This document shows positions 36,362-38,674 of a DNA stretch of 64,000 bases, one piece after another. Every line of letters starts with the position of its first letter. Positions within the stretch are counted from its first letter, which is position 1. Source of the stretch: Arthrobacter sp. ISL-5. GTDB lineage: Bacteria; Actinomycetota; Actinomycetes; Actinomycetales; Micrococcaceae. The DNA lies in the NCBI RefSeq assembly GCF_018613835.1, contig NZ_JAGGPM010000005.1, forward strand, positions 1-64,000, in the 5' to 3' direction. Below the pieces are notes generated by a model, which worked only from the letters and a program-made list of their open reading frames with translations, made no database searches and was not told where the DNA came from. The position numbers and the translations under genes are program-made.

Positions 36362-37306
36362 GTGAGCACGGCTTCGCGCCTCCCCCAGATCGTCGGCCGC
36401 CTGGCGTCAAAGCTTCCGGTCACCGTTGATGCAACAGTCCGCCGCCTCGCCTTGCTGTCCCTGATCGGGCAGACGCTGCTGGTGGTCACGGGCGGCGCCG
36501 TCAGGCTGACCGCGTCAGGGCTGGGCTGCCCCACCTGGCCCCGCTGCACGAACGAATCCCTGGTCAACACACCCGAAATGGGAATCCACGGCTTCATCGA
36601 GTTCGGCAACCGGCTCCTGACCTTCGCCCTCGCCGCCGTCGCGGCAATGATGCTGGTCTACCTGTGGAACCTGCGCAAGGAACGCAAGGATCTCTTCCTG
36701 CTTGCCCTGGGGCTGCTGGCGAGCATTCCCGCGCAGGCCATCATCGGCGGGGTGACGGTGCTGACGCGGCTGAACCCGTGGGTGGTGGGCCTTCACTTCC
36801 TGGTGTCCATGGCCCTGGTGGTCTTCGCCACGCTGCTGGTCAACCGCGCGTACGGCAGGACCGGCCGGTTCCTCACCCGCCCGCTGACGTCCCTGCCGGG
36901 AGTCCTGCGGCCGGTGATGACCGCCGTCGCTGTTTTCTCCGCGGTGGCGGTCATGCTGGGCGTCGTGGTGACCGGCGCAGGCCCGCACGCGGGCGACGCC
37001 AAGGCACCCCGCAACAACCTCGACTGGGACCTCTTCTCCCACATCCACGCCGTGCCTGCCTACCTGATCACCGCCGGAACCCTGTTTGCCGCCTACCTGG
37101 TGTTCCGCCGCGGCATCTCCGGCCCGTTCCGCACGGCCGTGCTGCTGCTCCTCGGCGTCACGCTGCTGCAGGCCGTCATCGGTTTCACCCAGTACTACAA
37201 CGGCATCCCGGCGCTCCTCGTGGGCGCCCACATGCTGGGCGCGGCGCTGCTGATGAGCGCTGCAACCAACGCCTGGGACATCGCCCGCTACAGCCCCGTC
37301 AAGTAG
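36362..37306 (+). CDS. ctaA: Heme A synthase (CtaA/COX15)
   Basis: 314 aa from GTG 36362, with eight membrane helices in two four-helix halves. The heme-ligand His residues are visible in GIHGFIEFGNR, VVGLHFLVSMAL, SHIHAVPAYL and GAHMLGAAL. GLGCPTWPRC holds the conserved Cys pair and RLTASGL precedes it. It oxidises heme O to heme A for the aa3 oxidase. The partner ctaB lies convergently downstream. The stop codon TAG is itself part of a 16-bp tandem repeat. Confidence 0.94.
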   Translation: MSTASRLPQIVGRLASKLPVTVDATVRRLALLSLIGQTLLVVTGGAVRLTASGLGCPTWPRCTNESLVNTPEMGIHGFIEFGNRLLTFALAAVAAMMLVYLWNLRKERKDLFLLALGLLASIPAQAIIGGVTVLTRLNPWVVGLHFLVSMALVVFATLLVNRAYGRTGRFLTRPLTSLPGVLRPVMTAVAVFSAVAVMLGVVVTGAGPHAGDAKAPRNNLDWDLFSHIHAVPAYLITAGTLFAAYLVFRRGISGPFRTAVLLLLGVTLLQAVIGFTQYYNGIPALLVGAHMLGAALLMSAATNAWDIARYSPVK

Positions 37307-37401: not shown

Positions 37402-37433
37402 AAGCACTCCGGTCCGCGTTGACCGGGGTGCTT
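37402..37433 (+). terminator. ctaA intrinsic terminator
   Basis: The stem AAGCACTCCGGTC (37402-37414) pairs with GACCGGGGTGCTT (37421-37433), including one G-U. The loop is CGCGTT and TTCTGTT follows. Confidence 0.85.
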
Positions 37434-37448
37434 TTCTGTTCTCTACCG

Positions 37449-37699
37449 ACGCTCTCTCACTTCCTGCGCACTTTCGGCCGATGCCCTCACTTCCTGCACG
37501 CGATCTGCCGACGCTCTCTCACTCCCTGTCGCCCAAACACAAACGCTCTCTCACTTCCGTACGCTATAAGGAAGCTCCCCCACATGATGATGTGAAGGAG
37601 CGTTGCCGAATCTGTTGCGAAAAGTGAGAGAGCGTTGCGGAATCTGTTGCGAAAAGTGAGAGAGCGTGGCCGAATTTATTGCGAAAGGTGAGAGAGCGT
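37449..37699. repeat. Eight-copy 32-bp-period array in inverted halves
   Basis: Core ACGCTCTCTCAC or a variant begins at 37449, 37481 (degenerate, ATGCCCTCAC), 37511 and 37543. The inverse, GTGAGAGAGCGT, begins at 37592 (two changes), 37624, 37656 and 37688. Spacing is 32 bp except one 30-bp step where two bases are lost from the core. The 20-bp inter-core segments are partly conserved and differ between the halves. The array fills the gap between convergent ctaA and ctaB, downstream of the ctaA terminator, and could fold into a long imperfect stem about a 37-bp centre. No cas genes are nearby. Confidence 0.85.
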
Positions 37700-37714
37700 C
37701 CTGGGGGTGCCCGG

Positions 37715-38674
37715 TCAGCCCATAATGGCTGAGCCCACGAACGGGTCCACGGCCAGGGCGATGAAGAGGAGCGTCAGGTAGCTGATGGAGCCGTGGAAGA
37801 CCTTCATGGCGCCATTATCGGACAGGTCCCCGCCCTGCGCCCGGTTGTACAGGGCGTGGGACTCGTACAGGAACCAGGCGCCGGCAAGAACGGCGGTCAC
37901 GGTGTAGACCCAGCCGGCACCGCCGGCGGGGACCATGAGCAGCGAACACGCAACCATGGCCCAGGCGTAGAGGACCACCTGCACGGAAACCACCTTGGCG
38001 CCTGCGATGGCGCCGAGCATGGGCACGTTGGCGTTCCGGTAGTCCTCGCCGTAGCGCATGGACAGCGGCCAGTAGTGCGGCGGAGTCCACAGGAAGATCA
38101 CCATGAACAGTACGACTGCCGGCCACTCGACGGTGTTGGTGACAGCAGCCCACGCGATGAGAACCGGGAAGCAGCCGGCCGCCCCGCCCCAGACGATGTT
38201 CTGGGCAGTTCGCCGCTTCAGGATCATGGTGTAGATCACCACGTAAAAGACGATCGCACCGAGCCCGAGCCACGCGGAGAGCGGATTCGCGCCGAACCAG
38301 AGGATGGCGATTGCGGCCGCGCCCAGCAGCCACGCAAAGATGAGGGCCTCCCGCGGCGTGACCTCACCGGTGACCAGCGGACGCTTTTCGGTGCGGTGCA
38401 TCAGCTTGTCGATGTCGCGGTCGATGTAGCAGTTGAAGGCGCCGGCGCTGCCGGCGGCGAATGCGCCGCCCACCAGCGTTGCGATGATGAGCCCGAGGGA
38501 CGGAAAACCGCGCTGGGCGTAGATCATCGTGGGGAGCGTGCTGACCAGCAGAAGTTCAATGACCCGCGGCTTGGTGAGAGCAAGGTACGCCTTCGCCTTG
38601 CGGGCTAGTCCGGCTCTTCCGTGGACCCTGCTGGAGGTCAGCGGCGTATCTGTTGTGCTCACGTTGGCAGTCAC
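37715..38674 (-). CDS. ctaB: Protoheme IX farnesyltransferase (heme O synthase) CtaB
   Basis: 319 aa from GTG 38674 (GTG 38662 also fits), with about nine membrane helices. The prenyltransferase Asp motif is [20 protein letters not shown], followed by a second cytoplasmic loop [17 protein letters not shown] and [10 protein letters not shown]. It farnesylates heme B to heme O, the substrate of CtaA. Two further upstream in-frame starts exist but would extend into the promoter region shared with tkt. Confidence 0.93.

Follow-up and report, generated by a model that had tools for sequence, protein, structure and literature searches.

A 32-bp repeat array between ctaA and ctaB of Arthrobacter sp. 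ISL-5 and its likely partner, an AbiEi-plus-homing-endonuclease-like protein

To our knowledge, for most repeat families that are dispersed through bacterial genomes no enzyme that makes them is known, and the RAYTs are the main exception. In REPIN/REP and RAYT systems (TnpA-REP, REPtrons), inverted repeats are scattered through extragenic DNA, a gene for a DNA-processing enzyme is flanked by its own repeat, and gene and repeat are reported to co-evolve (PMC8266576, PMC3733652). The AbiEi antitoxin is described as binding two 23-bp repeats with two monomers, bending the DNA (PMC7319586), the homing endonuclease I-Bth0305I as dimerising on nearly 60 bp (PMC3943268), and the DUF559-domain protein VsrA of Caulobacter as triggering a DNA-damage response in cells (PMC12907096). 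Here we describe an array of 12-bp cores in 32-bp units, in inverted halves, at positions 37449..37699 of a 64,000-nucleotide stretch of Arthrobacter sp. ISL-5 (the window; contig NZ_JAGGPM010000005.1, positions 1 to 64,000), between genes resembling ctaA and ctaB. From sequence comparison, the array belongs to a set of 26 or more copies in its genome and is likely a binding and landing site of a protein that combines AbiEi with a homing-endonuclease-like part. The partnership of repeat and protein is in itself highly probable, and that this nuclease spread the repeats seems to us an evenly balanced proposition. The repeat is tied to the gene because the two are physically linked in most gene-bearing relatives, because flanks and protein diverge together, and because one orthologous site occurs both uninterrupted and with the gene at the centre of its array.

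The core of the window array is ACGCTCTCTCAC. The window genome (G000; 5.35 Mb, 70 contigs) contains 105 exact copies of this 12-mer, 50 plus and 55 minus, against 0 copies of the same pattern read backwards, which excludes a chance origin at genome scale; within the window alone, cores with up to two mismatches do not stand out from chance (12 against 7.3 expected, with 12 reached in 9 of 100 shuffles). The stretches around 100 of the 105 cores resolve into at least 26 arrays, 18 of them with both orientations. Contigs C8, C29, C34, C40, C41 and C69 (loci L195, L202, L204, L206, L207 and L208) end no more than a few hundred bases from an array; the arrays probably break the assembly of this draft genome, and the copy counts are therefore minima. 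Among the 59 genomes searched the core was present in 26 (own included), three of which lie outside the genus with one or two matches each that may be due to chance. Named relatives with a tandem pair, among the matches listed, are mostly Arthrobacter and Pseudarthrobacter, with one Paenarthrobacter and one unplaced Micrococcaceae. At family level the tandem form with one base left free was found in 18 of 245 genomes (own included; 2 of 32 genera), and at class level in 2 of 246, namely the window genome and one other of its genus. The interspersed repeat family raised by the original prediction is thus borne out: the motif recurs throughout the genome and the 32-bp step is retained in relatives, so that neither absence elsewhere nor loss of spacing was found. 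An orientation of cores by replication arm was considered and rejected, as its one-sided look was an artefact of listing and a fuller listing (100 of 117 cores) was mixed.

A gene for a protein of 319 amino acids lies between a plus and a minus half-array in the same genome, outside the window; it is on another contig and was therefore invisible to the original prediction. In its predicted structure the protein is similar to an AbiEi antitoxin with the EDxHD homing endonuclease I-Bth0305I attached, and its C-terminal part matches DUF559, with family matches otherwise limited to MTES_1575 and AbiEi. Cores at 32-bp spacing stand on both sides of the gene in 19 of the 22 genus genomes with a close homologue (at least 380 bits; own included) and on neither side of eight distant paralogues (at most 362 bits), and the same arrangement of gene and half-arrays occurs in two genomes of a second genus. 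The TGA stop of the gene falls within the first minus core in 11 of the 23 copies shown, and the plus half-array ends shortly ahead of a TGTGGATAA box, which we take to be the DnaA-box consensus. A perfect TGTGGATAA was found upstream of 50 of 62 AbiEi-DUF559 genes (loci L268-L348), in 46 of them at a distance of 45-49 nt from the start codon; among 263 control genes 1 had the box, and only 1 of 9 AbiEi-DUF559 genes from other families has it. Three copies of the flanked gene, compared with Pfam and NCBIfam, matched no recognised transposase, and neither family matches nor fold make it an HUH/Y1 tyrosine transposase, a RAYT elsewhere in the genome not having been searched for. An AbiEii toxin gene is absent beside the gene at locus L084, where the neighbours are PucR and a formyltransferase; other loci were judged by eye only.

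Empty and filled versions of one site were found next to a formyltransferase gene (here named purU; Pfam Formyl_trans_N) and a PucR-type regulator. An uninterrupted palindrome occupies this site in G000, G020, G028 and G036, and the gene stands between two halves in G015, G021 and G062 and at L084; in G013 the gene is accompanied by the minus half only. The far-side regulator was recognised by the end of its sequence, G062 and G013 excepted. An uninterrupted array in G002 also adjoins this formyltransferase, and the remaining 21 of 30 loci examined showed neither state by rule, some having other palindromes or neighbours. As in a homing gene, the gene thus lies inside a site that relatives carry uninterrupted, and the array would be the target of the enzyme. 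At least three host loci are known for the gene (fhs, PucR-purU and a third read by eye). The gap downstream of fhs holds the close clade in many genomes, and at L291 (G006) and L290 (G032) it holds a second clade with a different palindrome, TTGCTCTATCA...TGATAGAGCAA in G006 (by eye). At L278 (G002) the cassette beside fhs has the opposite orientation to the other genomes read (by eye), which suggests re-insertion or inversion.

Repeat and protein also vary together. The core variant at the gene flanks recurs as the dispersed core in several genomes: ACGCSCGCTCAC-type tandem pairs number 57 in G012, 20 in G011, 19 in G017 and 3 in G001, where this type flanks the gene. G009, which has only a fragment of the gene, has 9 such pairs, G006 has 2 and G022 has 1, and G000 lacks them. 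A second, degenerate pattern was counted 53 times in G036, 42 in G035 and 13 in G018, with fitting gene flanks in all of them, and not at all in G000; match positions are those of G036, without those of G035 and G018. For 50 of 61 genes from several clades, the upstream and downstream 350-bp flanks aligned with each other better than did those of any of the 123 controls. Sixty-five loci had been entered, of which L304 and L306 gave no protein hit and L270 and L345 had short flanks; the controls are genes of the genus, 9 of the 61 tested genes come from other families, and since orthologues are among the 61, these are not independent cases. A wrong gene start accounts for at least one of the low scores (L307), the palindromes there being visible by eye. 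Crossed flanks, taken upstream of one gene and downstream of another, rarely scored as high when the two proteins were most distant (0.1% of pairs), and the share rose to 78% for the closest. Across the class, 20 of 27 genes from 12 families (28 loci entered, truncated L395 dropped) had flanks that matched each other better than 99% of mismatched pairs.

The close clade showed inverted similarity only, and its gene therefore stands between two half-palindromes; in other clades the gene mostly has complete palindromes both before and after it, and their arms measure 32 bp in two closely read cases (L300 and L301, by eye). One of these other-clade palindromes is also scattered, with 10 exact matches in G012 and 15 in total over 5 of 59 genomes. 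Repeat counts, which mix single cores and tandem pairs, had a median of 31.5 in the 22 gene-bearing genomes and 15 in 15 others, and were zero in 0 of 22 and 5 of 15, respectively. The family profile matches 94 of 118 class genomes and 64 of 72 genera, with up to 14 matches per genome, under the source names hypothetical, DUF559, endonuclease domain-containing and very-short-patch-repair endonuclease. The protein family looks mainly chromosomal in the collections searched, because a related protein was found in only 6 of 72,556 plasmid records and 1 of 50,697 phage records, all below 60% identity.

The repeat unit itself has features that would suit a protein-binding site. Across 263 distinct units, TT comes after the core, position 17 is G (97%) and position 18 is C or T (96%). 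Positions 23-25 form an AT-rich patch (82-86% A or T) where the two bases are interchangeable, with GC-rich stretches on either side. The step was exactly 32 bp in 191 of 207 same-orientation neighbour pairs from 39 stretches selected by the core alone; this figure is preferred to the 331 of 352 of the mixed set, 80 of whose 119 stretches were selected by a pattern already demanding a 32-bp step. Spacers were less than 40% identical in 69 of the 191 exactly spaced pairs. Since the exact spacing is kept without shared spacer sequence and A exchanges with T, we infer that the unit is double-stranded DNA that a protein would read in phase with the helix, over three turns. The idea of a protein reading one helix face is compatible with the unit, and the general nucleoid-protein array that had also been proposed is not favoured by the evidence, though no test was aimed at it. 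Hairpins within units were rejected, as a covariation scan inside the 263 units found no hairpin-like position pair; only facing units pair. Rho-type RNA loading sites, raised by the CU-rich sense strand, were set aside, without a direct test, given the A/T exchange in the AT patch and the exact 32-bp step. All 39 orientation switches in the core-selected arrays run plus-then-minus. An earlier survey on a mixed set also contained a few minus-then-plus switches; there the two core starts that face each other at a switch were most often 23 bp apart.

The window array (37449..37699, no strand) contains six exact and two damaged cores. Four plus four cores at 32-bp steps had been claimed here; the location is confirmed, and the exact count is three plus three. 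In the plus half, unit 1 (37449..37480) begins with an exact core at 37449-37460, unit 2 (37481..37510) has a damaged core, ATGCCCTCAC, and units 3 (37511..37542) and 4 (37543..37574) have exact cores at 37511-37522 and 37543-37554. The second core is shortened by 2 bp and its unit measures 30 bp, so that 62 bp (32+30) instead of 64 separate the core starts at 37449 and 37511. In the minus half, the core of unit 1 (37572..37603) at 37592-37603 has 2 mismatches, and units 2 (37604..37635), 3 (37636..37667) and 4 (37668..37699) carry exact cores at 37624-37635, 37656-37667 and 37688-37699. What had been read as a 37-bp centre between the halves holds a further plus half-core, AAGCTCCCCCAC, at 37572-37583, which can pair with the damaged minus core in a central hairpin (37571..37603, no strand) that is terminator-like on the minus strand at 37601-37574. 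This was the one terminator-like site at the array, against 0.6 expected by chance. The predicted RNA fold of 37440-37710 is far more stable than that of shuffled sequence (z -8.07, matched by 0 of 200), and comparison of the array with Rfam gave no credible family match.

Upstream of the array, the ctaA-like gene (36362..37306, plus strand; Pfam COX15-CtaA) ends 142 nt ahead of it, and the stop of the ctaB-like gene (37715..38674, minus strand; Pfam UbiA, prenyltransferase) is 15 nt off its other side; both starts come from a codon-score script. A separate terminator-like hairpin with a short T-tail was seen by eye at 37402-37436, between ctaA and the array, and is absent from the terminator scan list. 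An array is present at the ctaB site in 13 of 30 genomes (own included), with the core variants ACGCTCCCTCAC in G036, ACGCCCGCTCAC in G012 and ACGCGTCCTCAC in G002. In the gap after ctaB at L239 (G004), read by eye, the array centre resembles a T-tailed terminator hairpin with repeat-unit arms, and the palindrome of the second clade comes next to it in one copy; the same gap in L255 (G034), L249 (G008) and L259 (G061) has another motif, CACCTAG/CTAGGTG, repeated at short intervals (by eye).

Genome-wide, the arrays favour the ends of genes, as called near them by a simple codon-score script that leaves starts and small genes approximate. Convergent gaps hold 63 of 134 distinct arrays (from 119 stretches) against 100 of 499 background gaps, and divergent gaps 13 of 134 against 136 of 499. 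The median distance from array to facing stop codon is 9 nt (121 of the 134 have a facing stop), and in tandem gaps 46 of 56 arrays are closer to the 3' end of the upstream gene. The 39 core-selected stretches agree, with 27 of 56 arrays convergent, a median of 9.5 nt and 19 of 23 nearer the upstream gene end. The barrier between convergent genes that had been suggested survives as a tendency only. A strict sense orientation of one-way arrays was strong in the first 61 arrays, weakened later (31 against 17; 12 against 6 among the core-selected) and was dropped.

This placement is what would be expected if the arrays were end-of-gene devices, either two-way terminators or protectors of mRNA 3' ends, with the nuclease gene hitchhiking in gaps that tolerate insertion. 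The short distance to the facing stop, the lean towards upstream gene ends and the enrichment of convergent gaps would all follow, as would the strong RNA fold of the window array, the T-tailed hairpin with similar arms in the ctaB gap of G004 (by eye) and the persistence of arrays in genomes without the close gene. We nevertheless consider it unlikely: the T-tailed hairpin at the window array is not above chance, a terminator would not need an exact 32-bp step over unlike spacers, and the matching palindrome on both sides of the gene in each protein clade would be left unexplained.

A gene between inverted halves, gene-less copies and at least three host loci would also fit an insertion sequence with repeated inverted ends, the scattered arrays being gene-less derivatives similar to miniature inverted-repeat transposable elements and moved by cut-and-paste instead of homing or REP-like processing. 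However, no transposase family was matched, the enzyme part is Vsr/EDxHD-like and a target-site duplication could not be established; insertion-sequence ends made of tandem 32-bp units would, moreover, be unusual, and we regard this explanation as quite unlikely. Less probable still, and in our view improbable, is that the units are operators of a stand-alone regulator that represses its own gene and perhaps others, with the nuclease part serving defence. AbiEi antitoxins are reported to bind repeats in their own promoter (PMC7319586), and here arrays stand upstream of the gene beside the conserved TGTGGATAA box, yet arrays also stand downstream of the gene and elsewhere mostly past gene ends, and divergent gaps, where promoters would be, are depleted.

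Several observations weigh against a partnership of the arrays with the AbiEi-endonuclease-like protein and against spread by it. No target-site duplication was established, the filled and empty sites compared being too diverged, and many uninterrupted arrays exist alongside an intact gene, though a plain homing enzyme should cut them; cutting, if any, would therefore be rare, regulated or structure-dependent. Cores are lacking on both sides of the gene in G008 and on one side in G013 and G033. Arrays without the close gene occur in G003, G024, G025, G026 (one contig), G027 (68% complete), G028 and G032, and with a gene fragment only in G009; few cores were found in G004 and G006, in which no close gene was found. 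The repeat-count ranges of gene-present and gene-absent genomes overlap, and the degenerate pattern also occurs 19 times in G026, 17 in G003, 17 in G032 and 15 in G024, all without the close gene. The gene-flank core of G002, ACCCTTCCTCAC, differs from its dispersed cores, ACGCGTCCTCAC, the comparison of core variants leaves out the G010 variant, and 11 of the 61 genes did not surpass all controls in flank match. One-way arrays were aligned with the nearest facing stop in only 31 cases against 17 (p 0.06).

Homing into its own repeat by the AbiEi-endonuclease-like protein could proceed as follows. One protein monomer would occupy each 32-bp unit, read through the AbiEi part as the AbiEi analogy suggests, and two facing units, about 64 bp together, would be bound by a dimer, in analogy to I-Bth0305I. 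The endonuclease part may cut or nick near the array centre, and repair of the break from a gene-bearing or gene-less array would copy in the gene or more array; the window array would be a gene-less, non-autonomous copy. Gene ends are probably where gene-less copies harm least, and placement there may add an end-of-transcript function. More tentatively, and with somewhat less than even confidence, these genes might form a selfish family spanning this actinobacterial class, in which AbiEi-EDxHD endonucleases home into the centres of their own palindromes, which differ from clade to clade, and give rise to dozens of gene-less copies just past gene ends; in the Arthrobacter group expression would be tied to chromosome replication through the DnaA-box-like TGTGGATAA, and the window array would be one seeded site.

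The enzyme-repeat partnership, if real, would assign a function to a protein family whose profile matches most of the class genomes searched, and spread by this enzyme would be a new route for repeats through bacterial genomes. As most of these genes are flanked on either side by a predicted DNA site, specificity could be read over many natural pairs. Among the matches listed, the open-access literature did not link AbiEi or DUF559 proteins with interspersed repeats or name the motif. Relative to the AbiE type IV toxin-antitoxin system, AbiEi is here fused to a nuclease-like part, the repeats are genome-wide, and the toxin gene is absent beside the purU-site gene. VsrA of Caulobacter has been proposed to act in mismatch repair, and the available text of that source mentions no repeats (PMC12907096). 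Unlike I-Bth0305I, the gene has no intron in view, an AbiEi part replaces the DNA-binding region of the phage enzyme, and a single genome has dozens of gene-less sites. The closest parallel, the REPtron, has an HUH tyrosine transposase where this system has AbiEi with a Vsr/EDxHD-like domain, and its REP unit is a hairpin of 20-40 bp, whereas the unit here is a 32-bp direct-repeat site. So far as the open-access literature among the matches listed shows, the combination of enzyme and repeat is new, and its logic is shared with REP/RAYT systems and with homing genes that split their targets; it would then be a second, unrelated enzyme-repeat partnership, and the arrangement would have evolved more than once.
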